Shown piece after piece: positions 4,212 through 18,848 of a DNA stretch of 27,459 nt (positions are counted from its first letter, which is position 1; each line of letters begins with the position of its first letter). Source of the stretch: Betaproteobacteria bacterium (lineage in GTDB: Bacteria; Pseudomonadota; Gammaproteobacteria; Burkholderiales; SG8-39). The position numbers and the translations under genes are program-made. Location of the stretch: the NCBI GenBank assembly GCA_009693435.1, contig SHXF01000058.1, forward strand, positions 1-27,459, written 5' to 3'. The notes beneath the pieces were generated by a model. The model did no database searches. It was given only the letters and a program-made list of their open reading frames with translations, and had not been told where the DNA came from.

Positions 4212-4368
4212 TCCAGAATCCGGCGCCTTAGCCGTACCAGTAGTTATATCAATCCTTGGATATAAACCGCCCGGTAACGACCGATATATGGGGAGTTCTA
4301 CGGAGTAATTCCCTGAATTACCGGGTTTCCCCGGCACCCGCCCCTACTCCGCCCTGATATTCGCCTCG
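4212..4368 (+). repeat. tctC-flank repeat, copy B
   Basis: Partner of 2752-2912. It covers the last codons of the intact tctC gene and about 130 bases downstream of it, including CCGATATATGGGGAGTTCTA. Because this copy is attached to the intact gene, it is likely the parent arrangement. Confidence 0.7.
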
Positions 4369-5309
4369 CGGATGATGCGCGCCCAGTGGGCGGTCTCGGA
4401 CTTGATCTGCGCGGCGAATTCCGCAGGGGTGTTGGCCACCGGATAGAGGCCCTGCGCGGCCAGCGCGGCGCGCACCTCGGGCAGGTTGACGATGGCGGCG
4501 ATCTCCGACTGGATGCGCCGCACCAGTTCCGCCGGCGTGCCGGCCGGGGCCATGGCGCCGTACCAGGAGGCCACGTCGAAATCGCGGATGCCGGCTTCCT
4601 CCACCGTGGGCAGGTCCGGCGCGGCCGGCGAGCGCTTCGCCGTGGTCACCGCGAGCGCGCGCAGCTTGCCCGCCCTCACCTGCGGCATCAAGGTCGGCAC
4701 CGAGCCGAACATCAGGGTGATCTGCCCGCCCATCAGGTCCTGCATCGCCTGGGTCGTGCCCTTGTAGGGGACGTGCACGATGTCGATGACGGCGCTGCGC
4801 TTCAACAGTTCGCCCGCCAGGTGCAGGCTGGAGCCGATGCCGGGCGAGCCGTAGGTCACCTTGCCCGGGTTCGCCCTGGCGTGGGCGATGAATTCCTGCA
4901 CCGTTTTCGCCGCCAGCGACGGATGCACGGCGATCATGTTCGGCGCCGTCGCAACGAGCGTCACCGGAACGAAGTCGCGATCCCAGCTGAAGGGCATTTT
5001 CATCAGCGTGGCGTTGATGGTGATGTTGCCCTGCGGCACGAACAGCAGCGTGTAGCCGTCGGAAGCGGCGCGGGCGACCAGCTCGATGCCGATGTTGCCC
5101 GCCGCCCCGGGCCGGTTTTCGACGATCACCGGCTGGGCGCTGCGCGCCTGGAGTTTCTCGGCGACGGTGCGCGCCAGCACATCGATCGGGCCGCCCGGCG
5201 GAAACGGCGCGACGATCCGCACCGGCCGCGCCGGCCACGATTGCGCGAGCGCCGCGCCGCACGCCGCGGCAAGCAGCAGCGCAACCAGCACCCGCAACCA
5301 GCGACTCAC
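4344..5309 (-). CDS. Bug/TctC-family periplasmic solute-binding protein
   Basis: A 321-residue protein with a signal peptide (hydrophobic LVALLLAAACGAALA, likely cleavage before QSWP). The hallmarks of Bug/TctC proteins follow in order: PVRIVAPFPPGGPIDVLAR, ENRPGAAGNIG, DGYTLLFV, YGSPGIGSSLHLAGELL, HVPYKG and WYGAMAPAGTP. These proteins bind carboxylates, including aromatic acids, in the periplasm and deliver them to TctAB membrane partners or act as sensors. No TctA or TctB is encoded here, which is usual for Betaproteobacteria with many orphan Bug genes. It starts with GTG overlapping the upstream RidA-family stop (GTGA), so it is the last gene of the leftward operon. Its ligand is plausibly the substrate of the linked oxygenases. 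Length is typical and no damage is seen. Confidence 0.93.
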   Translation of the reverse strand: MSRWLRVLVALLLAAACGAALAQSWPARPVRIVAPFPPGGPIDVLARTVAEKLQARSAQPVIVENRPGAAGNIGIELVARAASDGYTLLFVPQGNITINATLMKMPFSWDRDFVPVTLVATAPNMIAVHPSLAAKTVQEFIAHARANPGKVTYGSPGIGSSLHLAGELLKRSAVIDIVHVPYKGTTQAMQDLMGGQITLMFGSVPTLMPQVRAGKLRALAVTTAKRSPAAPDLPTVEEAGIRDFDVASWYGAMAPAGTPAELVRRIQSEIAAIVNLPEVRAALAAQGLYPVANTPAEFAAQIKSETAHWARIIREANIRAE

Positions 5310-5707
5310 GAATTCGACGCGTTGCGGATCGCCGTGACGTCGATTTCTATGAGGCAGCCGATGCCGGCGAGGCCCTTGATCTCAATCATGGTGGAGCACG
5401 GCCGGGGCTCGGGAAAGAATTCGTTGCGGGCGCGGCCGAACTCGGGGCGCTTGCCCATGTCGGTGACGTATACGGTCATCTTCACCACGTCCGCGACGCA
5501 GGCGCCTGCGGCCTCGAGCATGATGCGGATCTTCTCCATGCATGCCTTCGCCTGCAGGTACATGTCGCTGCCGCCGGTCGGCTGGCCGTCCGCGCCACGC
5601 GCCGTCATCCCGGAGATGAAGATCTGGTCGCCCACCATCAGGCAATTGGAATAAATGCCGTCCGGCGGCTCGGCCAGGTGCGGCGATACGATTTTTCGGA
5701 TAGTCAT
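5306..5707 (-). CDS. RidA/YjgF family protein
   Basis: A 133-residue protein, full length for the family, with the characteristic YSNCLMVGDQIFISGM near the start, a central helix (AKACMEKIRIMLEAAG), VVKMTVYVTDM and C-terminal IEIDVTAI. RidA proteins form trimers with active sites at the subunit interfaces and hydrolyse reactive enamines/imines; some catabolic members are 2-aminomuconate deaminases. Its start overlaps the oxygenase stop (ATGA) and is preceded by GAAGGAG. Its stop overlaps the tctC start. Tight coupling to a Rieske oxygenase suggests it handles an imine or aminomuconate-like intermediate or a related tautomer, but that is inference. Confidence 0.9.
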   Translation of the reverse strand: MTIRKIVSPHLAEPPDGIYSNCLMVGDQIFISGMTARGADGQPTGGSDMYLQAKACMEKIRIMLEAAGACVADVVKMTVYVTDMGKRPEFGRARNEFFPEPRPCSTMIEIKGLAGIGCLIEIDVTAIRNASNS

Positions 5708-6909
5708 GGGTGCTCCTTCAGATGGGCAGGGGTTGGGGTTACAGGGGCAGGGGTTGCCAGCCTTGGGATTGCCAGCCTCGGGGTTGCCAAGCCTTGGGAT
5801 TGCCAAGGCAAGGGCAGGCCGGCGGCGGCCAGCGCCGCGAGTTGCGCCTCGGCTTCGCTGCGCATCCAGCGGCGCACCCAGCTGACGCCGGTGTCGTGAT
5901 CGTAGAGGAACTCGCGCTCGCACGCGTCCGGCTCGATTTCCTCCATCAGGGCGCGGTCCTGCTCCAGCACCGCCCAGTGGCGCGCCTCCAGCCGGTTGCG
6001 ATAGAGGAAGCGCCACACGTTGCGCTGCCAGCCCGCGACCTTGCGGTTGCGCCAGAAGAAATTCGCGCAGCGTCCGTCGCCGATCGGCGTGCCCATGAAG
6101 ATGATGCCGAAGTTGCCCCCCGGGCCGCCCGTCTTCGGATACGGAATCTCCAGGCGCGCGTAGCAGATGTGGGGGTCGCACCACTCGCTCCAGTCGAAAT
6201 TCACGTCGCGCTGGGTGACCTTCTCGAAGACAAAACCGGTTTCGGTGTTGCGGATGCGGAACTTCGCCTCTATGTCGCCCGCCGCCATGGAATGCGACTG
6301 CCGGTGCAGGAAGGTGCCGTGCATCGGGTCGAGGTTGTTGTCCACGCCGTAGCGGTAATCGACCCGCCATTCGGTATAGCAGAGGAAACGATCGTAGTCC
6401 TCGCCCACCAGCTGCGGCGGCAGTTGCAGGGGCTGCGGCTCGGCATGCAGCGCGTCGCCGAACCACGCGTAGATAGCGCCGTTCACCTCCTGCGACGCGT
6501 AGGTCATCACCGCGCGCTGGCCTTCGAGCCTGCAGCCGGGCGAACCCGGCACCGACAGCACCGTGCCGTCTCCGCCTATCTCCACCCCGTGATAGACGCA
6601 GGCGATGCGGTTGCCCAGGTGGCGCGCGAGCGACAGCGGCGCGCCGCGGTGCGGGCAATGGTCTTCCTGAACGTGCACCACACCGTCCATCGCGCCACTA
6701 CCGGCGCCGCCGCCCAGTTCGCGCCACAGCACCAGTTTCAGTCCGAGGCGATACAGCGATAGCGGTTTGTCGCCGACGAAATGCGAGGGGCACAGCGCGT
6801 ACCAGCGATTGCGCAGGCCGATTTTCAGCAGGGTCTGCACGTCTTCCTCGGTGGGCGGGGCGGCGCCTGCAGTACCCTCAGGGGCAGGCGCGGACTTGAT
6901 GGTGGCCAT
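5704..6909 (-). CDS. Rieske-type aromatic ring oxygenase, alpha subunit (1)
   Basis: A 401-residue protein. The N-terminal Rieske domain has C85-P-H87 and C104-V-Y-H107 (CxHx16Cx2H), binding a 2Fe-2S cluster. The catalytic domain has D194-P-M-H197-G-T-F-L-H202, the Asp that relays electrons and two His ligands of the mononuclear iron. No beta subunit is present, so it belongs with the phthalate-dioxygenase/vanillate-demethylase-like single-component group. It would hydroxylate or demethylate an aromatic acid using electrons from a reductase or ferredoxin. The ATG at 6909 is preferred: it follows the upstream stop by two bases and has GGAG in place. The C-terminal 35 residues are a low-complexity Pro/Leu/Ala tail encoded by a 15-bp tandem repeat, unlike normal family members. 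It is clearly paralogous to the oxygenase at 10401. Confidence 0.93.
   Translation of the reverse strand: MATIKSAPAPEGTAGAAPPTEEDVQTLLKIGLRNRWYALCPSHFVGDKPLSLYRLGLKLVLWRELGGGAGSGAMDGVVHVQEDHCPHRGAPLSLARHLGNRIACVYHGVEIGGDGTVLSVPGSPGCRLEGQRAVMTYASQEVNGAIYAWFGDALHAEPQPLQLPPQLVGEDYDRFLCYTEWRVDYRYGVDNNLDPMHGTFLHRQSHSMAAGDIEAKFRIRNTETGFVFEKVTQRDVNFDWSEWCDPHICYARLEIPYPKTGGPGGNFGIIFMGTPIGDGRCANFFWRNRKVAGWQRNVWRFLYRNRLEARHWAVLEQDRALMEEIEPDACEREFLYDHDTGVSWVRRWMRSEAEAQLAALAAAGLPLPWQSQGLATPRLAIPRLATPAPVTPTPAHLKEHP
5724..5812. repeat. 15-bp tandem repeat in the oxygenase 3' end
   Basis: About five imperfect units (for example GGGTTGCCAGCCTTG at 5751-5765 and GGATTGCCAGCCTCG at 5766-5780). They encode the repeated LATPRLAIPRLATPAP tail of the first Rieske oxygenase on the minus strand. 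The unit length is a multiple of three, so the reading frame is kept. Confidence 0.8.
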
Positions 6910-6911
6910 CG

Positions 6912-7154
6912 CTAGGCTCCGAGCTGCGCCATCACGGCCTCGAACCGCTCGTCGGTCCACGTGTCACCGTTCGGCGTGCGCACGCCCTCCTGATTCAGCC
7001 GCGCCACCACGCCGGGCAGATCCCAGATGCCTGCGCCGAACGCCGCTTCGATCGCGTCGCCCAGCAGGTTCTCGTAGTGGTTGGGCGGGGAGCGCTGCGC
7101 CTGGCGCGCTTGCAGATATGGCGGCGGCAGGGCCGCGTCATGCGGAAATTTCAT
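6912..7154 (-). CDS. Small recombinase-like helix-turn-helix protein (1), Rieske-linked
   Basis: An 80-residue protein with HYENLLGDAIEAAFGAGIWD then LPGVVARLNQEGVRTPNG and a closing WTDERFEAVMAQLG. The second half resembles the helix-turn-helix of the serine-recombinase 'recombinase' domain (LNxxGxxTPxGxxWxxxxVxxxL), but there is no catalytic resolvase domain. It is a paralogue of 8175-8474, and each copy sits within a Rieske oxygenase gene group. Start 7154 overlaps the upstream stop (ATGA). It may be a small accessory or structural subunit or a DNA-binding regulator. Its function is not known to me. Confidence 0.75.
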   Translation of the reverse strand: MKFPHDAALPPPYLQARQAQRSPPNHYENLLGDAIEAAFGAGIWDLPGVVARLNQEGVRTPNGDTWTDERFEAVMAQLGA

Positions 7155-7480
7155 TTCTTGCTCCACTCCCCGGCCTGGTAGCGCGCCTTGATGCGCTCGC
7201 GCACCGGGACGAAATCATAGGTCGGATAAAACTCGGTGGAAAACACGCCCCACGCCGATCGCTCGATTTCGATGTTCACCTGGTTGAGCTTCTCCGGCGG
7301 CATGCGCAGCGTCACGATCTGCCCCAGACCCATCGCGACGGTCCAGGAAACGATTTCCACGCCTTCGGGCGGAAAGCGTTCCCACCACTGGCGCTCGGCC
7401 AGGGTGCCCTGGATCTGGTCGATGTTTTTGGTCTGGTCGTGCTTGAGAAATATCGTCACCAGTATGGTCTGGTCGCTCAC
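7151..7480 (-). CDS. Conserved-looking 109-aa protein of unknown function, first gene of Rieske operon
   Basis: A 109-residue protein, no signal peptide or membrane segment. The sequence alternates predicted strands and helices (TILVTIFLKHDQ; VEIVSWTVAMGLGQIVTLRM; KLNQVNIEIERSAWGVFS; YPTYDFVPVRERIKAR), which suggests a compact ferredoxin-like alpha/beta fold of the dimeric barrel kind. I do not recognise the family. It heads the leftward operon, its stop overlaps the next start, and its ATG at 7480 follows GGAGGCTCC at 7485-7493 on the coding strand. Being first in a tight oxygenase operon, it may assist catalysis or binding of the product. Confidence 0.7.
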   Translation of the reverse strand: MSDQTILVTIFLKHDQTKNIDQIQGTLAERQWWERFPPEGVEIVSWTVAMGLGQIVTLRMPPEKLNQVNIEIERSAWGVFSTEFYPTYDFVPVRERIKARYQAGEWSKK

Positions 7481-7570
7481 TGGAGCCTCCGGTAGTGTGC
7501 AGCGATTGAAAAGGCCGCCGGCGATGCGGCGTGTCGCCGTCCGGCCGCAACGGCTGCATCATCTTCCGTG

Positions 7571-7658
7571 GCATCATCGATCCGCATCATCGAACCACGC
7601 ATCATCGAGCCACGCAGCATCGAGCCACGCAGCATCGAACCACGCATCATCGAGCCAC
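7571..7658. repeat. 15-bp tandem repeat in the divergent intergenic region
   Basis: Five units of GCATCATCGAGCCAC with G/A and T/G variation, preceded by a 13-base partial unit. The array abuts the TTGACA of the rightward promoter exactly at 7658/7659. It lies within 7481-7787, which otherwise holds only the regulatory sites listed here. Confidence 0.85.
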
Positions 7659-7689
7659 TTGACAAACCGCTACCGGAGGATGCTACACT
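7659..7689 (+). promoter_or_regulatory. Sigma70-like promoter of the rightward catabolic operon
   Basis: A perfect -35 TTGACA (7659-7664) is followed at 17 bases by GCTACA (7682-7687) or at 19 bases by TACACT (7684-7689). It faces the ferredoxin gene that opens the rightward unit. The expected start of transcription is near 7695. Confidence 0.6.
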
Positions 7690-7709
7690 GCGTTTCACTA
7701 AAGAACAAT

Positions 7710-7727
7710 TGTTTCATATATGAAACA
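7710..7727. promoter_or_regulatory. Perfect 18-bp palindrome, candidate operator
   Basis: TGTTTCATATATGAAACA is its own reverse complement. It lies about 15-30 bases past the expected transcription start of the rightward operon, a typical repressor position. IclR-family operators are often TTTCA..TGAAA-type palindromes, and an IclR gene is encoded in this operon, so it is the natural candidate regulator. AACAATTGTT at 7704-7713 is a second, overlapping palindrome. Confidence 0.6.
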
Positions 7728-7787
7728 CGACGCTTTTTTCAACCCGGTTTTCCCACTGTTTCCTTCACTCAACATCACTTATAAATC

Positions 7788-8108
7788 ATGACCGCAAAAT
7801 GGCACGACGTCGGCCCGCCCGACGACCTGAACGAAGACCAGCCGATTACCGTCAAGGCCGCAGGAAGGGAAATCGGCATTTACGTACTCGACGGCAAGCA
7901 CTATGCGCTGGAAGATGTCTGCCCGCATGCGTTTGCGCTCCTGTCGCAGGGTTTCATCATGGACGGGGAAGTCGAGTGCCCCCTGCATGGCGCCCGCTGG
8001 GACATCGCGACCGGCGCGCTGAAAGCCGAACCCGGCGGGCGGGACCTGAAATGCTATCCGTGCAAAGTCGAGGGCGGCCGGGTACTGGTCGAAGTGCCTG
8101 AATCCTGA
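7788..8108 (+). CDS. Rieske 2Fe-2S ferredoxin (oxygenase electron carrier)
   Basis: A 106-residue single-domain Rieske protein. C45-P-H47 and C64-P-L-H67 (CxHx16Cx2H) bind the 2Fe-2S cluster, and the length fits non-haem iron oxygenase ferredoxins such as BphF/CarAc types (about 105-110 residues). It would shuttle electrons from a reductase to one or both Rieske oxygenases encoded nearby. It is the first gene after the promoter at 7659. No reductase is encoded in the window, so electrons must come from a protein encoded elsewhere. Confidence 0.92.
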   Translation: MTAKWHDVGPPDDLNEDQPITVKAAGREIGIYVLDGKHYALEDVCPHAFALLSQGFIMDGEVECPLHGARWDIATGALKAEPGGRDLKCYPCKVEGGRVLVEVPES

Positions 8109-8174
8109 TCCAGCGGTCTTTTATTTTCCCTTTGTCTTTCCCCTTTGTCTTTCCCCCATGCGAGGCGAACGACC

Positions 8175-8474
8175 ATGAACCACAACCCCCATCTCAAGCC
8201 GTGGCGCCAGCCGCAGCCGGCACGGGTAGCCGGAAAGGGCGCGATAGAAACGCCCGGCGAAGTGGCCAATATCGTCTGGCAGACGCGCTCCGCCGAACCG
8301 ACCGAGTACGAGAACCAGCTCGGCGATGCGCTGGAAGCGGTATTCGAGTCCGGCGTCGCAACGCTGCCCGACGTGGTCGCCAAGCTCAATGACCTCGGCA
8401 TGTTCGCCCCCGACGGTAGCCGCTGGTCCGAGGATTCGTTCCAGATCGAAATAAAACGCCTGGCCGCAAAATGA
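8175..8474 (+). CDS. Small recombinase-like helix-turn-helix protein (2), Rieske-linked
   Basis: A 99-residue protein whose C-terminal 60 residues (EYENQLGDALEAVFESGV, LPDVVAKLNDLGMFAPDG, WSEDSFQIEIKRLA) align closely to the 80-residue protein at 6912-7154. The N-terminal 40 residues are a Pro/Gln-rich extension (HLKPWRQPQPARVAG). The start at 8175 follows GAGGCGAACGACC; the upstream in-frame ATG at 8145 has no support. It lies between the ferredoxin gene and the transporter genes. The role is unknown: a small oxygenase accessory subunit and a DNA-binding protein are both possible. Confidence 0.75.
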   Translation: MNHNPHLKPWRQPQPARVAGKGAIETPGEVANIVWQTRSAEPTEYENQLGDALEAVFESGVATLPDVVAKLNDLGMFAPDGSRWSEDSFQIEIKRLAAK

Positions 8475-8616: not shown

Positions 8617-9471
8617 ATGGCAAGCAGCGCGACCGCGGCCTCCCCTCAGACCGGCGACCCTCACGGCGCCGTGGCCAATGTCGCGCGCATCCGCTTCGAA
8701 AAAGTCAGCAAGCGTTTCCTGCCGCAGAACGCGCGCGCGGGCAGCGGTGCCGGCGTGACGGCGGTGGAGGACGTGACCCTCGCGATAGGCGATGGCGAGG
8801 TGGTGTCGCTGATCGGCCCGAGCGGATGCGGCAAGAGCACCCTGCTCAACATGGGCGCGGGACTGTACCTGCCGACCGAGGGCGAAGTGACGGTCGATGG
8901 CGCAAGGGTCGAAGGTCCGAATCCGCATGTGGCCTTCATGCTGCAGAAAGACCTGCTGCTGCCCTGGCGCACCATCCGCGAGAATGTCGCGTTCGGCCTG
9001 GAGATCCGCCACGTGCCTGCAGCCGAGCGGCTGGAGCGCGCCGGCGCCCTGATGCTGCGTTGCCACCTGAAGGGTTTCGAGCGGCACTATCCGCACCAGT
9101 TGTCGGGCGGCATGCGCCAGCGCGCGGCCCTTGCCCGCACCCTCGCGGTGGACCCGCACGTGCTGCTGCTGGACGAGCCCTTCTCCGCCCTCGACGCCCA
9201 GACGAAAATGGTGCTGCAGGCCGACCTCGCGCGCACCCTGGCCGACGAGCACAAGACCGCGCTGTTCATCACCCACGACCTGATCGAGAGCGTGGCGCTG
9301 TCCGACCGGGTGCTGGTGATGTCGCAGCGCCCCGGGCGCATCGTGCGCGAGCTCATCATCGACATGCCGAACCGCGACGACCCGTTCTCGCGCCGGCAGC
9401 ATCCGAGGATCATCGAGTACGCGAACGAACTGACCGCGTTGCTCGACATCACCCATCAGGAGTTGCAGTGA
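8617..9471 (+). CDS. ABC transporter ATP-binding protein (SsuB/TauB-like)
   Basis: A 284-residue ATPase with every ABC motif: Walker A GPSGCGKST, Q-loop MLQKDLLLPW, signature LSGGMRQRAALARTLA, Walker B LLLDEPFSALD and switch His in FITHD. The PW after the Q-loop and the overall layout fit the nitrate/sulfonate/taurine/aromatic-acid importer family (SsuB, TauB). It powers uptake through the permease encoded next. The N-terminal 20 residues are a variable leader. The ATG at 8617 has a weak ribosome site. No cognate SsuA/NMT1-type binding protein is in the window. Confidence 0.93.
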   Translation: MASSATAASPQTGDPHGAVANVARIRFEKVSKRFLPQNARAGSGAGVTAVEDVTLAIGDGEVVSLIGPSGCGKSTLLNMGAGLYLPTEGEVTVDGARVEGPNPHVAFMLQKDLLLPWRTIRENVAFGLEIRHVPAAERLERAGALMLRCHLKGFERHYPHQLSGGMRQRAALARTLAVDPHVLLLDEPFSALDAQTKMVLQADLARTLADEHKTALFITHDLIESVALSDRVLVMSQRPGRIVRELIIDMPNRDDPFSRRQHPRIIEYANELTALLDITHQELQ

Positions 9472-9558
9472 TGGCTGCGGCTTTCAGGCGGATTTGCGCG
9501 CGAGCGCCGCGCAGATCGACGCGACCGGCGAGTGCGACCGGAACGCTCGGGTGAGCCC

Positions 9559-10353
9559 ATGAGCAACGGCAACCCCACCTCCTTGTCGGCCAGGACAATC
9601 GCGGCGAGCTTCACCGTGCTCGTGGTGTTCCTGGTGGCGTGGGAATGGCTGCCGGTGCTGCTCAAGGTGCCGCCCTTCATCCTGCCGCCGGCCTCCAGGA
9701 CCTGGTCGGAGTTCCTGCGCATGCTCGCAACCGAGCGCCTGCTGTGGCACAGCGGCATCACGGCCATGGAAGTCATCGTCGGCTTCATCCTCGGCTCGAT
9801 GCTGGGCATGGTCATCGGTTACGTCCTCGGGGTATCGCCGCGAACCGAACTGGTGCTCTCCCCCTACATCCTCGCGCTGCAGATCGCGCCCAAGGTGGCG
9901 TTCGCGCCGCTGTTCGTGATGTGGCTGGGCTACACCGTCTATCCGAAAATCCTGGTTGCCATCCTGATCGTGTTCTTTCCGGTGATGGTGAACGTGCTCA
10001 CCGCGATACGCACCGTGGACCCGGACCTCGTCAACCTGGCGCGCTCGTTCTCCTCGACGCGCCTGCAGATATTCCGCATGATCGAATTTCCGGCGACGAT
10101 GCCGCCGCTGTTCTCCGGACTGCGCATCGGCGCCACGCTCGCGGTCATCGGGGTGGTGGTGGGCGAGCTGGTCGGCGGCAATATCGGCCTGGGCTACCTC
10201 CTCGTATCCGGAGAGGGCCAGGGCAACACCGCCATGGTGTTCGTCACCATCATCATGCTCACCGTGATAGGCATCGTTGCCTACGGCGCGGTGGTGCTGG
10301 CCGAGCACAGGGTGCTGCATTACATGCCACGCGCGCAGCACACCGCGGTTTGA
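9559..10353 (+). CDS. ABC transporter permease (SsuC/TauC-like)
   Basis: A 264-residue inner-membrane protein with about six hydrophobic segments: near residues 10-30, 65-90, 100-120, 125-145, 185-205 and 220-245. The cytoplasmic coupling loop is VNLARSFSSTRLQIFRMIEF, matching the EAA motif of BPD-type permeases. It forms the channel with the ATPase at 8617. The start is taken as ATG 9559; a GTG at 9532 is possible. The 87-base gap from the ATPase stop is longer than most junctions in this operon. The stop codon begins a 12-bp tandem repeat. Confidence 0.92.
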   Translation: MSNGNPTSLSARTIAASFTVLVVFLVAWEWLPVLLKVPPFILPPASRTWSEFLRMLATERLLWHSGITAMEVIVGFILGSMLGMVIGYVLGVSPRTELVLSPYILALQIAPKVAFAPLFVMWLGYTVYPKILVAILIVFFPVMVNVLTAIRTVDPDLVNLARSFSSTRLQIFRMIEFPATMPPLFSGLRIGATLAVIGVVVGELVGGNIGLGYLLVSGEGQGNTAMVFVTIIMLTVIGIVAYGAVVLAEHRVLHYMPRAQHTAV

Positions 10354-10400: not shown

Positions 10401-11510
10401 ATGACAGTCGCAGAGAAAATCCATCCCGACAGAATCCGCGCAAAGGTGCAAAGCGGCCTGCACAATGTCTGGCATCCGGTGCTGCCTTCGTGGCGCGTAC
10501 ACGGCGCACCGGTGGGCATCACCCGCCTGGGGGAGAACATTTCCCTGTGGCGCGACAAGGAGGGCGTGGTGCGCGCCATCGAGGACCGCTGTCCGCACCG
10601 CGGCGCGCGTCTCTCCTTCGGCTGGAACCTCGGCGATCGCATCGCCTGCTGGTATCACGGCATAGAGCTGGACGGCTCGGGCACGGTGAAGAACGTCCCG
10701 GCGGTCCATGGCTGCCCGCTGGAAGGGACGAAATGCGTGCGCTCCTATCCGGTAAAGGAATTGCAGGGCGCGATTTTCCTGTATTTCGGCGATGAACTCC
10801 ATCCCGAGCCGTGCGCCTTCGAGCCGCCGGAGCAGCTCGCTTCGCCGGAATGGGGGGCGATGCTGTGCACCAGCTACTGGAACTGCAACTGGCAGTACGC
10901 CGTCGACAACGTCATGGACCCAATGCACGGTGCCTATCTGCACGCGCTATCGCACTCGATGGCCATGGGCGACAAACAGGCGGAAATGCACATCCGCACA
11001 ACCGACACCGGCATCGTGTTTGAGAAGACGGGGCAGCGCGGCGTCAATTTCGACTGGGTGGAATGGGGCGAGTCCGGCAGTTGCTGGCTGCGCCTGTCCA
11101 TCCCCTACCAGAAAAAATTCGGCCCCGGCGGCCCCTTCTACATCATCGGCTATGCCACGCCGATAGACGATGACCACTGCGAGGTGTTCTTCTGGCGCTG
11201 CCGACAGGCCACCGGCTGGCAGCGCGACGTGTGGAAATTCCTCTACAAGAACCGCCTCGAGGGCCTGCATTGGGACGTGCTCGAGCAGGACCGGCTGCTG
11301 CTGGAGAACATGGCGCCCGGCGCGCGCGACAACGAGTTCCTCTACCAGCACGACCTGGGGCTGTCGCGCGTCAGGCGGAGGCTGGAGAGAAAAGCGGCCG
11401 AGCAGCTGGGCGCACTCGACCAGGCACGCGCCGAGAAGGCACGCGCCGACCAGACACGCGCCGACCAGACGTCCGAGAACGCCGCCGGCCAGCCGCAAGC
11501 GGCCGACTGA
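10401..11510 (+). CDS. Rieske-type aromatic ring oxygenase, alpha subunit (2)
   Basis: A 369-residue protein with Rieske ligands C64-P-H66 and C83-W-Y-H86 and catalytic-domain motif D173-P-M-H176-G-A-Y-L-H181. It is paralogous to the oxygenase at 5704-6909 along its whole length (shared VDN..DPMHG..LH..SHSM, EKxxQRxVNFDWxEW, WQRxVWxFLYxNRLE). It likely catalyses ring hydroxylation or demethylation of an aromatic substrate with electrons from the ferredoxin at 7788. The ATG at 10401 is preceded by GGAGGGTGCC. The last 30 residues are an Ala/Arg/Glu/Asp-rich repeat tail encoded by a 15-bp repeat, again unlike the family. Downstream SDR and extradiol enzymes fit a cis-dihydrodiol route if it is a dioxygenase. 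Confidence 0.93.
   Translation: MTVAEKIHPDRIRAKVQSGLHNVWHPVLPSWRVHGAPVGITRLGENISLWRDKEGVVRAIEDRCPHRGARLSFGWNLGDRIACWYHGIELDGSGTVKNVPAVHGCPLEGTKCVRSYPVKELQGAIFLYFGDELHPEPCAFEPPEQLASPEWGAMLCTSYWNCNWQYAVDNVMDPMHGAYLHALSHSMAMGDKQAEMHIRTTDTGIVFEKTGQRGVNFDWVEWGESGSCWLRLSIPYQKKFGPGGPFYIIGYATPIDDDHCEVFFWRCRQATGWQRDVWKFLYKNRLEGLHWDVLEQDRLLLENMAPGARDNEFLYQHDLGLSRVRRRLERKAAEQLGALDQARAEKARADQTRADQTSENAAGQPQAAD
11424..11468. repeat. 15-bp tandem repeat in the second oxygenase 3' end
   Basis: Three units (GCACGCGCCGAGAAG, GCACGCGCCGACCAG, ACACGCGCCGACCAG) encode an ARAEK/ARADQ/TRADQ tail. The unit keeps the frame. The sequence is unrelated to the 15-bp repeat in the first oxygenase gene, though both lie at the same place in paralogous genes. 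Confidence 0.85.
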
Positions 11511-11535
11511 GCCCGCGGACCCTGACCCTGCGGCC

Positions 11536-12279
11536 ATGACCTCCCTGTCCCTGAACGGCAAGCGCGTCCTCGTCACCGGCGGGGCGCGCGGGCTGGGCAA
11601 GGCATTCGCCGCTGCGGCGATCGCCGCCGGCGCGCGCGTCGCCATCGCCGACATACTGGAAGACACGGGGCACGCCGCAGCCGCGGAAATCGGCGCGTCG
11701 TTCTTCCCGCTGGATCTCGCCTCGCCGCAGTCCATAGAAGCCTGCGTGGCCGCGACGGCTGCGGCGCTGGGCGGCATCGACGGCCTGGTGAACAACGGCG
11801 CCATCACCAACTCCGGCGGCAAGACGATGGACGAACTCGACACCGGCGTCTGGGACCGCGTGATGGCAGTCAACGTGCGCGGCACCTGGCTCGCGAGCCG
11901 CGCCGCCATCGCGCACCTGGGCGCATCGGGCGCCGGGCGCATCGTCAACATCGCCTCGGATACTGCGCTCTGGGGCGCGCCGCGCCTCATGGCCTATGTG
12001 GCGAGCAAGGGCGCGATCATCGCCATGACCCGTTCCATGGCGCGCGAACTGGGCGACGCCTGCATCACGGTCAACGCGGTGGCGCCCGGACTGACCCTGG
12101 TGGAAGCCACCGAATACATACCGCAGGACCGGCACGACCTGTACCTGCACGGCCGCGCCCTGAAGCGCCAGCAGATGCCGGAAGACGTGTGCGGCGCGGT
12201 GCTGTTCCTGTTGTCCGACCTAGCGAGCTTCATCACCGGCCAGCTGCTGCCGGTCAACGGCGGCTTTGTGATGCACTGA
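11536..12279 (+). CDS. SDR-family NAD(P)-dependent oxidoreductase
   Basis: A 247-residue classical short-chain dehydrogenase. The nucleotide-binding loop is TGGARGLG (residues 14-21), with D39 after the second strand favouring NAD. VNNGA stands for the usual NNAG; N113, S141, Y154 and K158 (YVASK) make the catalytic tetrad. The C-terminus GQLLPVNGGFVMH is normal. In this setting it may oxidise a cis-dihydrodiol or an alcohol formed by the oxygenases. It follows the oxygenase gene by 25 bases and its own stop opens a 12-bp tandem repeat. Confidence 0.92.
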   Translation: MTSLSLNGKRVLVTGGARGLGKAFAAAAIAAGARVAIADILEDTGHAAAAEIGASFFPLDLASPQSIEACVAATAAALGGIDGLVNNGAITNSGGKTMDELDTGVWDRVMAVNVRGTWLASRAAIAHLGASGAGRIVNIASDTALWGAPRLMAYVASKGAIIAMTRSMARELGDACITVNAVAPGLTLVEATEYIPQDRHDLYLHGRALKRQQMPEDVCGAVLFLLSDLASFITGQLLPVNGGFVMH

Positions 12280-12345
12280 ATCGCGCATTCAATCGCACAT
12301 TGAATCGCACATTGAATCCCGAATTAAATCCGAATTTGAATTTCG
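12275..12345. repeat. 12-bp tandem repeat at the SDR stop codon
   Basis: About six imperfect units of ATTGAATCGCAC, the first containing the SDR stop codon (cac TGA). It fills the 88-base gap to the cupin gene. Later units are progressively degenerate (ATTGAATCCCGA, ATTAAATCCGA). Confidence 0.85.
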
Positions 12346-12367
12346 TGAACGACTGAAGGAGAGAATC

Positions 12368-12913
12368 ATGGGTGAACCCGCACCGAAAGAAGTGACCAAG
12401 CGCTCCTGGGACCGCCCCGAGGGCAACAGTTTTTCGCAATGGATGGAATCGCGGGTCGCGCGCCTCTCGACGCGCCGCTACGACTGGGACGCGCTGAAGT
12501 TCCAGGCCGATTTCGATCCGAGGTACAAGCGCGCGCAGATGCGCTATGTGGGCACCGGCGGCACCGGCGTCTCCAGCGACGCCACGTCGGTGCCGGCGGA
12601 GGGCTTCACCTTTTCCACCATGATCATCCCGGCGGGCCACGAGGGCCCGATGCACCTGCATACCGACGTGGAAGAGATTTTCTTCGTCATCCGCGGCAAG
12701 GTGAAGGTGATGTGCGAGAAGGACGGCGAGAAGTGGGAGGTGATCGTGACCGACCGCGACCTGATTTCGATTCCCCCGGGCGTGTACCGCGGCGAAATCA
12801 ACATCGGCGAGGAAGACGCGCTGATGTGCGTGATGCTGGGCGCCGCCAAGCCGAACACGCCGACCTATCCGCCTGATCATCCGCTCGCCAGCATCAAGCG
12901 GCCGGCGAAGTAA
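12368..12913 (+). CDS. Cupin-domain protein
   Basis: A 181-residue single-cupin protein. Motif 1 is G90-x5-H96-x-H98 followed by E102/E103 and G110, supplying two His and one Glu ligand for a metal. The second motif (PPGVYRGEIN, residues 136-145) has no His where the usual fourth ligand sits, so the metal site is three-coordinate or altered. Possible roles are a ring-cleaving or other dioxygenase, an isomerase, or a binding protein. The ATG follows AAGGAG at 12356-12361. It stands between the SDR and the alpha/beta hydrolase in the operon. Confidence 0.85.
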   Translation: MGEPAPKEVTKRSWDRPEGNSFSQWMESRVARLSTRRYDWDALKFQADFDPRYKRAQMRYVGTGGTGVSSDATSVPAEGFTFSTMIIPAGHEGPMHLHTDVEEIFFVIRGKVKVMCEKDGEKWEVIVTDRDLISIPPGVYRGEINIGEEDALMCVMLGAAKPNTPTYPPDHPLASIKRPAK

Positions 12914-12952
12914 GGATACGGGCGGCGAAACGGACGACGCGGTCGCACCTAC

Positions 12953-13828
12953 ATGGCGCAGAAGAGCATGGCAGAGCGCAGCCCGGCACAGGCCGATGCA
13001 AGCCTGGAAGACCGGCTTGCACGCGTGCCGGTGCGGGAATTCCGCACCGCGCGCGGCGTGATTTCGCTGCGCGAAGCCGGCGCCGGGCCGGCACTGGTGC
13101 TGCTGCACGGCATCGGCTCGAATTCGGGCTCCTGGCTGCACCAGCTCGAATCGCCCGAGGGCAGGCGCATCATCGCCTGGGACGCGCCGGGCTACGGCAC
13201 CTCCACGCCGCTCGCGTCCGCATCGCCGTCGGCAGCCGACTACGCGGATGCGCTGACTGCGCTGCTGGATGCGATGGCCATCGACCGGTTGCTGCTGGTG
13301 GGACACTCGCTGGGCGCGCTCATGGCGGGGGCGTTCGCCGCGCGCCATCCGCAGCGCCTGCACGGTCTCGCGCTGCTCAATCCGGCCGGTGGCTACGGCA
13401 ATGCCGATCCCGCCCTGCGCGAAGAGCGGCTGGCGAGCCGACTGAAAATGATGGACGAACTGGGGCCCGCAGGCATGGCGGCGCAGCGCGCGAGCAACCT
13501 GCTCTCCCCCGCGGCGCCGCCGGGAGCGCTGCAACTGGTGAGCTGGAGCATGCGGCGGCTGGATCCCGCCGGGCACGAACAGGCGGCACGCATGCTGGCC
13601 GGGGGCAAGCTGGCGGAGGACGCGGCGCGCTTTCCCGGCCGGGCGCTGGTGATGTGCGGCAGCGAAGACCGCATCACGCCGGAAGCCGGCTGCCGGAAAA
13701 TCGCCGAGTGCTTCGCACACGGCGCCTATCGCTCGCTGCACGGGCTGGGCCATGCGTCCTATGCCGAGGCGCCGGCGCTGGTGAACGCGGCGCTGGCTGA
13801 ATTCGGCCGAGAGGCGGGCGCCTGGTGA
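12953..13828 (+). CDS. Alpha/beta hydrolase
   Basis: A 291-residue hydrolase with oxyanion-hole motif LLHGIGSNSGSW (residues 50-61), nucleophile S119 in GHSLGA, acid D239 in GSEDRIT and H267 in GLGHASY. This is the complete triad of the MhpC/enol-lactonase-like family. In an aromatic pathway it could open a lactone, split a meta-cleavage product or hydrolyse an ester. Its stop overlaps the regulator start by four bases (GTGA). Confidence 0.88.
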   Translation: MAQKSMAERSPAQADASLEDRLARVPVREFRTARGVISLREAGAGPALVLLHGIGSNSGSWLHQLESPEGRRIIAWDAPGYGTSTPLASASPSAADYADALTALLDAMAIDRLLLVGHSLGALMAGAFAARHPQRLHGLALLNPAGGYGNADPALREERLASRLKMMDELGPAGMAAQRASNLLSPAAPPGALQLVSWSMRRLDPAGHEQAARMLAGGKLAEDAARFPGRALVMCGSEDRITPEAGCRKIAECFAHGAYRSLHGLGHASYAEAPALVNAALAEFGREAGAW

Positions 13829-14616
13829 ACGCTGCACTGCCTCAATCGCGCTATCGCGTGCCGGGCCTGGAACGCGGCCTGCAGATCCTGCAGCTATTCG
13901 ATCGCCAGCAGACCCGGCTCACCCCGCCCGACATGGCGCGCGCGCTCGGCATACCGCGCTCGACGGTGTTTCGCCTGTTGCAGACGCTGGAGCAGCTCGG
14001 TTTCGTGGAACGGCAGGACAGCGGTTATCAGCTCGGTCCGGCGGTGCTGCGGCTCGGCTTCGAATACGTTGCCTCGCTCGCCATCAGCGACGTCGCGCGG
14101 CCGGCGGTGGAGGGCTTGCGCGACGAGACCGGTTTTTCCGCGCAGTTGATGATACGCGACGGGCGCGACGCGGTATGCGTGCTGAAAGCGGCCAGCACCT
14201 CGGCCTTCGCCAGCAACGTCAATGTCGGGACGCGCCTGCCCGCGCACGCCACCATCTTCGGCCGCATGCTGCTGTGCGACCTGCCGGAGCGCGAACTGCT
14301 TGCGATCTTCCCCGAGGCGCGCCTGGCGGGCCACTCGCCGCAGACCCCCAGGACCGTCGCCGAACTGGCGCGCCTGCTGCGCGAAGACCGCTCGCGCGGC
14401 CATGCGGTCAGCGAATCGTTTTTCGAACACAGCATCTCCGCCATCGCCGCGCCGGTCAGGGACCAGAGCGGAAAAATCGTGGCGGCCACGGGCATTACCG
14501 TGCCGCAACCCCGCATCGAGCCCGCGGCCTTGCGCGCGCGGCTGATCAAGCAGGTGAGCGCGTCCGCAGCGCGCCTCGCCCACCGTCTCAATTTCCGCCC
14601 GGCCGAAGCGGCCTGA
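13825..14616 (+). CDS. IclR-family transcriptional regulator
   Basis: A 263-residue regulator: N-terminal winged helix (residues about 13-75, with LTPPDMARALGIPRSTVFRL as the helix-turn-helix) and the IclR effector-binding domain (FSAQLMIRDGRDAVCVLKA; VGTRLPAHATIFGRMLL; SISAIAAPVRDQSGKIVAA). Such proteins sense aromatic acids or their breakdown products and repress or activate linked operons. It is embedded in the operon rather than divergent from it and starts with GTG inside the preceding stop. The perfect palindrome at 7710-7727 is a likely binding site, which would make it an autoregulator. Confidence 0.93.
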   Translation: MNAALPQSRYRVPGLERGLQILQLFDRQQTRLTPPDMARALGIPRSTVFRLLQTLEQLGFVERQDSGYQLGPAVLRLGFEYVASLAISDVARPAVEGLRDETGFSAQLMIRDGRDAVCVLKAASTSAFASNVNVGTRLPAHATIFGRMLLCDLPERELLAIFPEARLAGHSPQTPRTVAELARLLREDRSRGHAVSESFFEHSISAIAAPVRDQSGKIVAATGITVPQPRIEPAALRARLIKQVSASAARLAHRLNFRPAEAA

Positions 14617-14651
14617 CGGCAATCGCAGCAGATTTTTTTACAGAGGCATCA

Positions 14652-16334
14652 ATGAAAACCACCGTAGGCGACGTTGTCGCAGCTTTCCTCGAACAATGCG
14701 GCGTGCAGGCAGCGTTCGGTGTGATATCCATCCACAACATGCCGGTGCTGGATGCGTTTCATCGCCGCGGCAAGATCCGTTTCGTTCCGGCGCGCAGTGA
14801 AGCGGGCGCGACCAACATGGCCGACGCCTATGCGCGCGTCACGCCGGGCCTGGGGGTCACCATCACCAGCACCGGCACCGCGGCCGGCAACGCCTGCGGC
14901 GCGATGGTGGAGGCACTGACGGGCGGCACGCCCCTGCTCCACCTCACCGGCCAGATAGAGATTCCTTACCTGGACCGCAATCAGGCCTACATCCACGAGG
15001 CGCGCGACCAGATGGCGATGCTGGCAGCAGTGTCGAAAGCCGCGTTTCGCGTGTGGAGCGCCGCATCGGCGCTGGCCACATTGAAGCTCGCGGTGCAGAC
15101 GGCGCTGACGGCGCCCGCGGGTCCGGTGAGCCTGGAAATTCCGATCGATATACAGGCGAGCGAAATCGACTGGCCGGCGGATCTGTCGCCGCTGCCCGTG
15201 GCGACCAGCGTTCCTGCGGCGGCAGCGCTGGATGCGCTGGCGAATCGATTGGCGCAGGCGAAGCGGCCGTTGCTGTGGCTGGGCGGCGGCGCGCGCGGGG
15301 CAAGCGATGCGGTCCGGCGGCTGGTGGCGCTGGGCATCGGCGTCGTCACCTCCACGCAGGGCCGCGGCATCCTGCCCGAAGACCATCCCATGACGCTGGG
15401 CGCCTATACGCTGTATCCGGCGGTGGAGCAGTTCTACCGCAGTTGCGATGCGATGCTGGTGGTGGGGTCGCGGCTGCGCGGCAACGAAACGCTGAGATAC
15501 AAGCTCGCCCTGCCCAAACCCCTGTATCGCATCGACGCCGATCCGGAGCAGGCGCAGCGCAATTACGCGAGCGATGCCTTTGTCGCAGGCGACGCACGCC
15601 TGGCGCTGGAAGGCCTGGCCGACCGCCTGCAGGGGCGCATGCGCTGCGACCCGGCGTTCGCCGGCGATCTGGCCGCCGCGCGCGACGCGGCCGCGGCGCT
15701 GGTGCGCAAGGGCATCGGACCGTATGCGGCGCTGGTCGAGCGCTTGCAGGAAATCGCCGGGCGCGACTACGTATGGGTGCGCGATGTCACCGTGTCCAAC
15801 AGCACCTGGGGCAACCGCCTGCTGCGGATTTTCGGCGCGCATGACGGCGTGCACGCGCTCGGCGGCGGTATCGGCCAGGGCATACAGATGGGCATAGGCG
15901 CGGCCGTCGCAGAGCAGATGCGGCTGGAGCGCGCCAGTCCGCAGGCTGCGCGCGCTCGCAAGGTGCTGTGCCTGACCGGCGACGGCGGCCTGCAGGTCAA
16001 CATCGGCGAGCTTGCCACGGCGGTGCAGGAAAACGCCGACATGATCATCGTGCTGATGAACGACCGCGGCTACGGCGTCATCAGGAACATCCAGGACGCG
16101 CAGTACGGCGGCCGGCGTTGCTACGTCGATCTGCACACGCCCGATTTTGCGCTGCTGGCGAAATCGATCGCGCTGCCGCACTTCCGCGTGCGGGACCTGG
16201 ACGCGCTGCCCGCCGCGCTTGCCGCCGCGCTCGCGGCGCGCGGGCCGGTCATGGTGGAAATCGACATGATCGCCATCGGCCCCTTTGCCAGCGCCTTCGC
16301 CGGCCCGCCGGTGCGCGAGAAGGCGCCGGCATGA
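14652..16334 (+). CDS. Thiamine-diphosphate-dependent enzyme (acetolactate synthase-like)
   Basis: A 560-residue three-domain ThDP enzyme. The N-terminal domain has the catalytic Glu (E50 in RSEAGATNMADAYAR). The middle domain is the nucleotide-like fold (LWLGGGARGASDAV). The C-terminal domain has the ThDP/Mg motif GDGGLQVNIGELATAV ending in NDRGYG (GDG-x24-30-N). The length and layout fit the acetolactate synthase/benzoylformate decarboxylase/glyoxylate carboligase superfamily. In a catabolic operon it is more likely a 2-oxo-acid decarboxylase or carboligase than a biosynthetic enzyme. AGAGG precedes the ATG at 14652. The stop overlaps the next start (ATGA). Confidence 0.9.
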   Translation: MKTTVGDVVAAFLEQCGVQAAFGVISIHNMPVLDAFHRRGKIRFVPARSEAGATNMADAYARVTPGLGVTITSTGTAAGNACGAMVEALTGGTPLLHLTGQIEIPYLDRNQAYIHEARDQMAMLAAVSKAAFRVWSAASALATLKLAVQTALTAPAGPVSLEIPIDIQASEIDWPADLSPLPVATSVPAAAALDALANRLAQAKRPLLWLGGGARGASDAVRRLVALGIGVVTSTQGRGILPEDHPMTLGAYTLYPAVEQFYRSCDAMLVVGSRLRGNETLRYKLALPKPLYRIDADPEQAQRNYASDAFVAGDARLALEGLADRLQGRMRCDPAFAGDLAAARDAAAALVRKGIGPYAALVERLQEIAGRDYVWVRDVTVSNSTWGNRLLRIFGAHDGVHALGGGIGQGIQMGIGAAVAEQMRLERASPQAARARKVLCLTGDGGLQVNIGELATAVQENADMIIVLMNDRGYGVIRNIQDAQYGGRRCYVDLHTPDFALLAKSIALPHFRVRDLDALPAALAAALAARGPVMVEIDMIAIGPFASAFAGPPVREKAPA

Positions 16335-17128
16335 TGCGCGTGCTGATGCTGGGCGGCGGCGCCATCGGCCGCGAAGTGCTGAAGCATGTGGCGGGCGATC
16401 CGTCGCTCTCCATCACCCACGTGCTGGAACTGCCGGCGGGCCGCGAAGCGCTGCAGCGGCTGCTCGGCGCGGGCACACAGGTCATCGGTTCGCTCGACGA
16501 GATGAAAGAGAAACCCGACCTGGTCCTGGAATGCGCCGGCCATGGGGCGGTCAAGGCGCATGTGCCGCTGTTGCTCAGGCGCGGCATCGACGTGCTGCTG
16601 GTGTCGGTGGGTTCGCTCTCCGATCCGGGCCTGCCAGAAGCGCTGGCCGCCGCGGCAGCGGAAGGACATGCGCAGCTGACCCTCATATCGGGCGCCATCG
16701 CCGGCATCGATGCGATTGCCGCGGCCAAGGTGGGCGGCCTCGATGAAGTCATCTATACCGGCCGCAAACCGCCGCTGGGCTGGCTCGATTCGCCGGCGGA
16801 GAAAATATGCGACCTGCGCAGCCTGCGCGAGGCCACGGTGATATTCCAAGGCAGCGCGGGCGAAGCGGCGCGCCTGTATCCGAAGAACGCCAATGTCGCG
16901 GCCACCGTCTCGCTCGCGGGACTGGGCCTGGAGAAGACCCGCGCCACCTTGATCGCCGATCCGGCCGTGACCAAGAACATTCACCACGTGCGCGCGCTCG
17001 GCGCATTCGGCGAACTCGAGATCACCATATCCGGGCGGCCATTGGCGGACAATCCCAAGACCTCGGCGCTGGCGGCCTACTCGGCGGTGCGCGCACTGCG
17101 CAACCGCGTGGCCGCCGTCTGCATATGA
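16331..17128 (+). CDS. nadX: Aspartate dehydrogenase-like NAD(P)-dependent enzyme
   Basis: A 265-residue protein with a Rossmann start (MRVLMLGGGAIGREVLKHV) and the signatures of aspartate dehydrogenase: LISGAIAGIDAIAAAKVGG, YPKNANVAATVSLAGLGL, DPAVTKNIHHV and NPKTSALAAYSAVRALRN. The type enzyme NadX oxidises L-aspartate to iminoaspartate. Catabolic relatives are found beside ThDP enzymes and aldehyde dehydrogenases and may act on another amino or imino acid. Translational coupling to the ThDP gene (ATGA) indicates the two act together. The last codons and stop were duplicated into a 22-bp tandem repeat. The symbol follows the family; the true substrate is uncertain. Confidence 0.8.
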   Translation: MMRVLMLGGGAIGREVLKHVAGDPSLSITHVLELPAGREALQRLLGAGTQVIGSLDEMKEKPDLVLECAGHGAVKAHVPLLLRRGIDVLLVSVGSLSDPGLPEALAAAAAEGHAQLTLISGAIAGIDAIAAAKVGGLDEVIYTGRKPPLGWLDSPAEKICDLRSLREATVIFQGSAGEAARLYPKNANVAATVSLAGLGLEKTRATLIADPAVTKNIHHVRALGAFGELEITISGRPLADNPKTSALAAYSAVRALRNRVAAVCI

Positions 17129-17204
17129 CGACCACGCTGTCTGCGTATGACGGCCACGCTGTCTGCGTAGGACGGCCACGCTGTCTGCATTTGACGGCTG
17201 CTGT
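17117..17204. repeat. 22-bp tandem repeat at the aspartate-dehydrogenase-like stop
   Basis: Four units, each starting GTCTGC and ending GACGGCCACGCT with few changes (17117, 17139, 17161, 17183). The first unit covers the final codons GTC TGC ATA TGA of the gene, so the repeat arose by copying its 3' end. The unit is not a multiple of three. Confidence 0.9.
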
Positions 17205-17375: not shown

Positions 17376-18848
17376 GTGACCATCAAGCCCATTCTGATTG
17401 CCGGTGAGTGGCGGCAAGGCGCCGGACCGGTATATGCGTCGCACTATCCGGCGGACAACAGCATCAACGCCGAACTCGCCGCCGCCAGCGTTGCCGACGT
17501 GGAAGAAGCCATAGAAAAGGCCGATGCCGCCTGGCGCAAGCCGGACTGGCGCGACTTGAAGCCGCACGAGCGCGCGGGCTGCCTGCATCGCGTCAGCGCG
17601 CTGATACGCGAGCGCAGCGAGGAACTGGCGCAACTGCAGCGCCGCGACAACGGCAAGCCGATTAACGAAACGCGCGCGCTGGTGGCCAGCGCGGCGGGGA
17701 CATTCCAGTTCTACGCGGCGGCCTGCGAAACGCTGGAACAGGCGCTGACCCCGGCGCGCGGCGATTTCTTCACCATGAGCGTGCACGAACCGATGGGCGT
17801 CGTCGCGGCGATCACGCCGTGGAACTCGCCCATCGCAAGCGAAGCGCAGAAGCTCGCGCCGGCTCTTGCCGCGGGCAATGCGGTGGTGCTCAAGCCCGCG
17901 GAAGTCACGCCGCTGATCGCGCTGGAATTGGGCAGGATCTGCGAACAGGCGGGCATCCCCAGGGGCGTGGTCAGCGTGCTGCCGGGCAAGGGCTCGGTCA
18001 TCGGCGATGCGATCGTTAAACATCCGCTGGTGCGCAAGGTCGCCTTCACCGGCGGCACCGCCACCGGCCGCGCCCTGGCGCACCACGCGGCGGAGAAACT
18101 GATGCCGGTCACCCTGGAACTCGGCGGCAAATCGCCGACCATCGTGTTCGAGGATGCCGACATCGATCACGCGGTGAATGGCGTGCTGTTCGGCATCTTC
18201 AGTTCCACCGGCGAATCCTGCATCGCGGGATCGCGATTGTTCGTCCACCAATCCATTTACGGCAACTTCATGGAGCGACTGGTATCGGCTGCCAACGCGC
18301 TGCGCGTCGGCGACCCCGCCGATCCGGCGACGCAGATGGGGCCGATGATCACCAGCCAGCACCGCCAGAGCGTTGAAGACTACGTGGCGCTCGGGCAAAA
18401 GGAAGGCGGCAGGCTGCTCGCGGGCGGCGAGCGTCCCGGTGGCGCCTTGTTCGATCAGGGCTGGTATTACCGGCCGACGATACTGTCGGGCCTGTCCAAT
18501 ACAGCGCGCATCTGCCAGGAGGAAATTTTCGGGCCGGTACTGGTGACGCTGCCGTTTGCCGATGAAGCCGACCTGCTGCGCCAGGCCAACGACAGCGTCT
18601 ACGGACTCGCCGCCGGCATCTGGACGCGCGACTACAAGCGCGCGTGGCGCGTCGCCCGCGCTCTCGAAACCGGCACGGTGTGGATCAACACCTACAAGCT
18701 GTTCTCGATATCCACGCCGTTCACCGGCATCAAGGAAAGCGGCCTGGGCACCGACAAGGGACGCCTCGGCATACTGCAATACATGAATCAGAAAAGCCTC
18801 TACTGGGGGCTGAACGACAAGCCTCTTCCCTGGGCCAACCCGCAATAG
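17376..18848 (+). CDS. Aldehyde dehydrogenase family protein
   Basis: A 490-residue NAD(P)-dependent aldehyde dehydrogenase. The motif TPWNSPIASEAQKLAPALAAGN binds the cofactor, E248 sits in LELGGK and the catalytic Cys282 in STGESCIAGS; EEIFGPV and the C-terminal GIKESGLGTDKG complete the family pattern. It could oxidise a semialdehyde from ring cleavage or an aldehyde produced by the ThDP enzyme. It starts with GTG after AAAGAGGAGACCCGC. Length is normal. A 121-base gap with a hairpin separates it from the extradiol dioxygenase gene. Confidence 0.93.
   Translation: MTIKPILIAGEWRQGAGPVYASHYPADNSINAELAAASVADVEEAIEKADAAWRKPDWRDLKPHERAGCLHRVSALIRERSEELAQLQRRDNGKPINETRALVASAAGTFQFYAAACETLEQALTPARGDFFTMSVHEPMGVVAAITPWNSPIASEAQKLAPALAAGNAVVLKPAEVTPLIALELGRICEQAGIPRGVVSVLPGKGSVIGDAIVKHPLVRKVAFTGGTATGRALAHHAAEKLMPVTLELGGKSPTIVFEDADIDHAVNGVLFGIFSSTGESCIAGSRLFVHQSIYGNFMERLVSAANALRVGDPADPATQMGPMITSQHRQSVEDYVALGQKEGGRLLAGGERPGGALFDQGWYYRPTILSGLSNTARICQEEIFGPVLVTLPFADEADLLRQANDSVYGLAAGIWTRDYKRAWRVARALETGTVWINTYKLFSISTPFTGIKESGLGTDKGRLGILQYMNQKSLYWGLNDKPLPWANPQ

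Follow-up and report, generated by a model that had tools for sequence, protein, structure and literature searches.

Why should a small protein that resembles the helix-turn-helix of DNA recombinases be encoded with a Rieske oxygenase, and why twice on one stretch of DNA? The window, meaning the whole 27,459-nucleotide stretch that was analysed (contig SHXF01000058.1, from a betaproteobacterium), carries two such proteins, here called HTH_A and HTH_B. An earlier note on this DNA had described them as paralogous. Both open reading frames are real and homologous: BLASTP aligned the 80-aa HTH_A and the 99-aa HTH_B over 63 residues, of which 27 are identical (43%, E 2e-18). The motifs that the note listed as shared hold in both proteins, except that HTH_A begins HYEN and not EYEN. 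HTH_A and HTH_B both belong to the Pfam family PF20552 (HTH_62, 'Recombinase-like helix-turn-helix domain') and match it from position 2 to position 72 of 72. Since their scores lie far above the curated cut-off of 27 bits, the two are members of a protein family and not a chance resemblance. In the Pfam scan, PF20552 was the only family above its cut-off in either protein, and the catalytic domain of resolvases was absent from both, in line with the note. PF07508 matched HTH_A only, at 12.1 bits, which is below its cut-off of 21.1. The likeness to recombinase helix-turn-helix domains, also proposed in the note, is thus borne out at the sequence level by the Pfam name, by this weak PF07508 match and by the resolvase ORFs that are among the next-ranking hits of the PF20552 searches.

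Table 1. Genes of the two HTH_62/Rieske operons of the window, each in order of transcription.
Feature	Position	Strand	Family evidence
Unit A: 109-aa protein, unnamed family	7151..7480	-	no Pfam match
Unit A: HTH_A, 80-aa HTH_62 protein, short tail, partner of alphaA	6912..7154	-	PF20552, 92.2 bits
Unit A: alphaA, Rieske oxygenase alpha subunit	5704..6909	-	PF00355 + PF19112 (VanA_C)
Unit A: RidA-type protein (Endoribonuclease L-PSP)	5306..5698	-	PF01042
Unit A: TctC-type receptor (tripartite tricarboxylate transporter family), last gene of the unit	4344..5309	-	PF03401, 249.6 bits
Unit B: Rieske-type ferredoxin	7788..8108	+	PF00355, 70.8 bits
Unit B: HTH_B, 99-aa HTH_62 protein, conserved 42-aa N-terminal tail, partner of alphaB	8175..8474	+	PF20552, 95.3 bits
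Unit B: ABC transporter ATPase, between HTH_B and alphaB	8617..9471	+	PF00005, 107.3 bits
Unit B: ABC transporter permease, between HTH_B and alphaB	9532..10353	+	PF00528, 100.6 bits
Unit B: alphaB, Rieske oxygenase alpha subunit	10401..11510	+	PF00355 + PF19112
Unit B: SDR	11542..12279	+	PF13561 and PF00106
Unit B: cupin-domain protein	12368..12913	+	PF07883
Unit B: alpha/beta hydrolase	12953..13828	+	PF00561
Unit B: IclR-family regulator	13846..14616	+	PF01614 and PF09339
Unit B: thiamine-pyrophosphate (TPP) enzyme	14649..16334	+	PF02776, PF00205, PF02775
Unit B: aspartate-dehydrogenase-like protein	16331..17128	+	PF01958
Unit B: aldehyde dehydrogenase (ALDH)	17376..18848	+	PF00171
Unit B: VOC-like protein, pathway of unit B	18970..19944	+	308 bits against the HMM of one annotated VOC protein

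The HTH_62 and Rieske genes of the window form two divergent operons, unit A on the minus strand and unit B on the plus strand. Unit A runs from the 109-aa protein through HTH_A and alphaA to the RidA-type and TctC-type proteins. The HTH_A gene overlaps the 109-aa gene by 4 nt, and alphaA starts 2 nt further on. Unit B begins with the Rieske ferredoxin, HTH_B, the ABC ATPase, the ABC permease and alphaB, and continues with the SDR, cupin, hydrolase, IclR, TPP enzyme, aspartate-dehydrogenase-like, ALDH and VOC-like genes. The ATG at 10401 was chosen by us as the start of alphaB. The earlier note had placed one HTH copy beside each oxygenase; each copy does lie in the operon of an alpha subunit, but HTH_B is not adjacent to alphaB, from which it is separated by the two ABC genes (about 1.9 kb). 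Both alpha subunits match PF00355 and PF19112 above the cut-off, contain the Rieske ligand motif (C-x-H...C-x-x-H) and are 49% identical over 354 aa.

The 109-aa protein has 1296 homologues at E<=0.001, and the family members scanned matched no Pfam family, apart from one GYD match below the cut-off; by eye, some of its relatives look exported. The VOC-like protein gave no match in a Pfam scan at E<=1e-5. A pathway like that at 10401-19944 (Rieske alpha, SDRs, cupin, hydrolase, VOC, TPP enzyme, aspartate-dehydrogenase-like protein and ALDH) recurs elsewhere, including plasmid records of Caballeronia, Acinetobacter, Klebsiella, Novosphingobium and Paracoccus. Its substrate is not named in any paper that we found in the open literature. 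In a record labelled Acinetobacter phage (CAKLQH020000010.1, locus L257), a Rieske/HTH_62 operon lies beside pga genes, as it does in A. baumannii (L001); this record is probably host DNA that was labelled as phage. Near the start of the window, at 534-1733 (+), a Fic/DOC-family protein (PF02661) is encoded.

We determined how regularly HTH_62 accompanies a Rieske alpha subunit. The PF20552 HMM was searched against 398 Pseudomonadota genomes and 385 genomes of the class of genome G002, some genomes being common to both sets. At least 40 bits were reached at 15 and 18 places, respectively, 32 of them distinct overall; this line was set after the scores were seen, and no score fell between 32 and 40. 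A further 26 ORFs scored 21.4-32 bits, 17 of them with a resolvase-type motif and 9 without. These weaker places were excluded from the HTH_62 counts, and the neighbourhood was viewed only for one of them, a fused protein of genome G001. Four weak matches (L147, L148, L149 and L150, about 27-32 bits) are neither resolvases nor clear HTH_62 members. In neighbourhoods of about 20 kb, or less at contig ends, a Rieske alpha gene lay on the same strand as HTH_62 at all 32 places. The two genes were within about 100 bases at 19 places and 1.7-2.7 kb apart at 12, with other operon genes, mostly of an ABC transporter, in between; at the remaining place (L190), alpha is about 2.9 kb away from the HTH match, which lies where the contig ends.

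The reverse search, with alphaB as the query (E<=1e-40) against both sets, gave almost the same genomes. Among the 398, the 15 genomes with an alpha were the same 15 as those with HTH_62. Among the 385, alpha was found in 16 and HTH_62 in 15, all of which are among the 16; in the sixteenth (G504), the search recovered no more of alpha than 127 residues from its C-terminal part. On plasmids, 47 records matched alphaB at E<=1e-20. Of the 40 listed, 26 have an alpha of about 45% identity or more, and HTH_62 was present on all 26 (23 by tblastn, 3 by annotation). The other 14, with alphas of less than 30% identity, gave no HTH_62 match by tblastn, and the annotation of two of them, which we viewed, has no HTH_62-type gene beside alpha. 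Because tblastn missed divergent copies on three plasmids, the absence from the other plasmids rests on a fallible search. Genome contigs were also scanned, starting from HTH_62; an alphaB-type gene was downstream in 80 of 80 kept loci, which are the best 80 of 143, were picked through HTH_62 and are mostly from Burkholderiaceae. The exception is an A-type alpha of G001 (L227, contig C17), 51% identical to alphaB, with neither HTH_62 nor a 109-aa gene in view; G001 encodes HTH_62 elsewhere. The counted genomes and plasmids are related to each other, and these counts are not independent events. The association between HTH_62 and the Rieske alpha subunit is near-exclusive in genomes. Homologues lying mostly away from Rieske genes, which would have spoken against the functional link claimed in the earlier note, did not appear in the neighbourhood survey that it had suggested. 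This co-occurrence and the natural fusions to either end of alpha strongly support the link.

The first fusion came from G001. In this protein of 426 aa, Rieske and VanA_C domains come after a domain at the N terminus that resembles HTH_62 and scores 21.6 bits, less than the Pfam cut-off; no separate HTH_62 gene was found in the surrounding 12 kb. A homologue search with the fused protein gave 1122 matches, and the 120 that were listed were examined. Precomputed annotation assigns both PF20552 and PF00355 to 55 of these 120, so the fused architecture is already visible in Pfam; our own profile counted 57 HTH_62-Rieske fusions. The HTH precedes alpha in 54 of the 57 and follows it in three (P0221, P0226 and P0227; PF20552 scores 67.1 bits in P0221), and the Rieske ligand motif is kept in all 57. 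An alpha tree was built by a quick method with SH-aLRT support from 70 alphas, including 15 of the 57 fused proteins; L024, L037, L048, L063 and L164 were omitted to thin near relatives, and the basal row, L191, is a long branch beside a two-row outgroup. The 12 sampled N-terminal fusions make up one clade (SH-aLRT 99). The three C-terminal fusions form a separate clade (SH-aLRT 100), nested in a 32-row clade (SH-aLRT 98) whose other members are B-type alphas. Because the two kinds fall in different clades, with the C-terminal fusions among B-type alphas, two separate fusion events would fit this tree best. There is also a third kind, in which HTH_62 is joined to the 109-aa protein beside an A-type alpha (G723, G652 and G565; loci L137, L138 and L139).

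The structure prediction recommended in the note was carried out for HTH_B alone and for an HTH-alpha pair. For HTH_B (AlphaFold, 37 sequences), helices are predicted at 44-58, 64-73 and 86-97, with pLDDT of 86-95 for the core blocks. The N-terminal 42 residues are conserved like the core (0.71 versus 0.68), yet they are predicted to be disordered. The pair was modelled in one job, in which HTH_62 and alpha of Trinickia, encoded by two genes, were read as a single chain; the alignment held 9 other pairs read likewise, 46 natural fusions and 12 HTH-only rows. The model has a pTM of 0.83, with 92-97 for the HTH core blocks and 83 for the last block. Ceilings of pTM can be estimated from its formula. 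By rough arithmetic on this single pTM, the ceiling would be about 0.72-0.75 with the HTH core unplaced and 0.83-0.84 with the core placed; assuming intradomain errors of 1.5 A, the bound with the HTH placed is 0.81. Since 0.83 exceeds the unplaced ceiling, the core appears to be placed on alpha in the model and may dock there. Contrary to expectation, the tail was still disordered in the presence of alpha (10-residue blocks of 41, 39, 38 and 59, versus 55, 51, 49 and 56 alone). Thus, the prediction is compatible with a core that sits on alpha, but it leaves the tail unordered.

According to the earlier note, the HTH protein had been duplicated together with its oxygenase. The five nearest relatives of HTH_B all lie beside B-type alphas; four of the five nearest to HTH_A lie beside A-type alphas and the fifth beside a B-type. 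When the labels of the alpha tree were placed on the HTH tree, from which L191 was left out, 4 changes were needed; the least possible is 3, and the shuffled mean is 20.4. This agrees with co-duplication, but ready-made units acquired by transfer would give the same pattern, and the sequences are consistent with either an old duplication or the transfer of complete units. The correlation of HTH and alpha distances was 0.69, and that of HTH with other operon genes was 0.57-0.73. Co-evolution beyond that of the operon is not supported, because HTH correlates no more closely with alpha than with the other genes.

HTH_62 could be a small DNA-binding regulator of Rieske operons: its core is of the helix-turn-helix type and is homologous to the HTH of serine resolvases, and the protein is often encoded upstream of catabolic genes. 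The charge of this core makes such a role less likely. We calculated net charge over the final 60 residues of the HTH match; shorter matches were taken whole. At 42 places (31 of the 32 survey places, one ORF being too short, and 11 from further loci; three HTH_62/109-aa fusions are included) the mean was -6.26, with a range of -10 to -3, and the core was acidic in every case. The same was true of 24 of 24 HTH_62 homologues, the HTH_B of the window included (mean -7.29). By contrast, all 17 resolvase HTHs from the same searches were basic (mean +3.82, range +2 to +7), and the 9 other weak matches averaged +1.44. In the 57 fused proteins the HTH carries less negative charge (mean -3.75, range -9 to +4). 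Some DNA-binding proteins are acidic overall, and charge alone does not exclude DNA binding. However, HTH_62 is also fused to the enzyme at either end, and IclR genes are already present in 23 of the 32 survey loci; in unit B, the operon is more plausibly controlled by the IclR protein than by HTH_62. We regard a regulatory role as highly improbable. An electron-transfer adaptor, which would dock the ferredoxin or the reductase on the oxygenase, agrees with the ferredoxin gene directly upstream in many loci, including unit B. Yet the HTH_62 alignment (A1) has no conserved Cys or His column, the highest frequencies being 0.16 for Cys and 0.21 for His, so HTH_62 cannot carry a cluster itself. 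Moreover, the electron-donor gene varies by locus (ferredoxin, VanB-type or FAD-dependent reductase, or none in view), whereas HTH_62 is constant: loci with a VanB-type reductase as the donor, and loci that show no donor gene, still have it. An adaptor seems improbable to us, though less so than a regulator. HTH_62 is thus unlikely to bind DNA or to carry electrons. The earlier note had offered three options. The acidic core and the fusions disfavour its DNA-binding regulator, the lack of conserved Cys and His and the changing redox partners disfavour its electron-transfer adaptor, and the small stabilising subunit is favoured over both.

An assembly or folding factor for alpha, outside the mature enzyme, would also be small, acidic and encoded in the same operon, and it could have a conserved but apparently disordered tail; the exclusive linkage would look identical. 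But where HTH_62 is fused to either end of alpha, it would remain with the mature enzyme if no cleavage removes it, and the pTM implies, as far as a model can, a placement on alpha. This explanation is rather unlikely, although it is the strongest of the rivals. Finally, the linkage could be nothing but operon hitch-hiking, with HTH_62 acting on another step of the same pathway. Other pathway genes do recur (20 of the 32 survey loci have the TPP enzyme, for instance), and the distance correlations do not single out alpha. Against this, unit A and loci L179-L181 have HTH_62 with alpha while most pathway genes are not nearby on the strand, and in the fusions seen, the partner of HTH_62 is either alpha or the 109-aa neighbour. 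Hitch-hiking is as improbable as a regulator. The rivals are not fully distinct from the preferred reading, since an adaptor might itself be a subunit, and these estimates do not sum to one.

We consider it very likely that one clade of Rieske oxygenases has HTH_62 as a dedicated subunit or domain without catalytic function, whose role is probably structural. HTH_62 would be the small subunit of an alpha-only (VanA_C-type, dicamba-monooxygenase-like) clade and, in some lineages, would belong to the alpha chain as an integral domain. The three-helix core of HTH_62, which is acidic, would be a helix-turn-helix scaffold that lacks the net positive charge found in the related resolvases. This core may dock on the alpha subunit and would most likely stabilise or shape the oxygenase oligomer. 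We infer that the separate HTH_62 and alpha proteins form a physical complex in cells; our guess is that what HTH_62 actually does is to stabilise the enzyme or shape its active site. A bolder proposal, to which we give even chances, is that these enzymes have a third Rieske architecture beside alpha-only and alpha-beta, made of alpha and an obligatory HTH-derived 'gamma' subunit. A DNA-binding fold of the recombinase type would then have become a protein-docking module, gained at the root of the clade; fusion to one or the other end of alpha would have come later. Genome records label HTH_62 genes 'recombinase-like HTH' or 'hypothetical'. If our reading is true, cloning alpha, ferredoxin and reductase alone omits a part of the enzyme, and HTH_62 would offer a clear example of a DNA-binding fold recruited as a structural component in a redox enzyme. 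The role of this conserved gene becomes directly testable by co-expression. In the open literature, to which our search was confined, no paper was found for 'recombinase-like helix-turn-helix', HTH_62 or PF20552, and no published experiment on HTH_62; on small or accessory Rieske partners or such a gene cluster we found nothing relevant among the papers listed, PMC5757984 included. We do not claim priority for HTH_62 as a part of the oxygenase.

To our knowledge, dicamba O-demethylase oxygenase DdmC and other alpha-only oxygenases are homotrimers without a small subunit. The beta subunits of Rieske dioxygenases are larger than HTH_62 and have a different fold. HTH_A and HTH_B are clear members of PF20552, and RefSeq names such proteins 'recombinase-like helix-turn-helix domain-containing protein'. 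This name suggests a DNA-related role, whereas the genome context, charge and fusions of HTH_62 point to a part of an enzyme. With the HTH of serine resolvases and recombinases, HTH_62 shares, by eye, the pattern L-N-x-x-G...G-x-x-W; however, the HTH of resolvases is basic and comes after a catalytic domain, while the acidic HTH_62 is either a separate protein or attached to a Rieske alpha. When alphaB was compared with PDB sequences, DdmC (PDB 3gb4) matched best (E 2.9e-21). As for the beta subunits of alpha-beta dioxygenases, HTH_62 is instead a three-helix domain of 80-100 aa, and no beta-subunit family matched HTH_A or HTH_B in the Pfam scan. Such a beta subunit, for example IadE of Variovorax iadDE, is likewise a small non-catalytic partner encoded with alpha.
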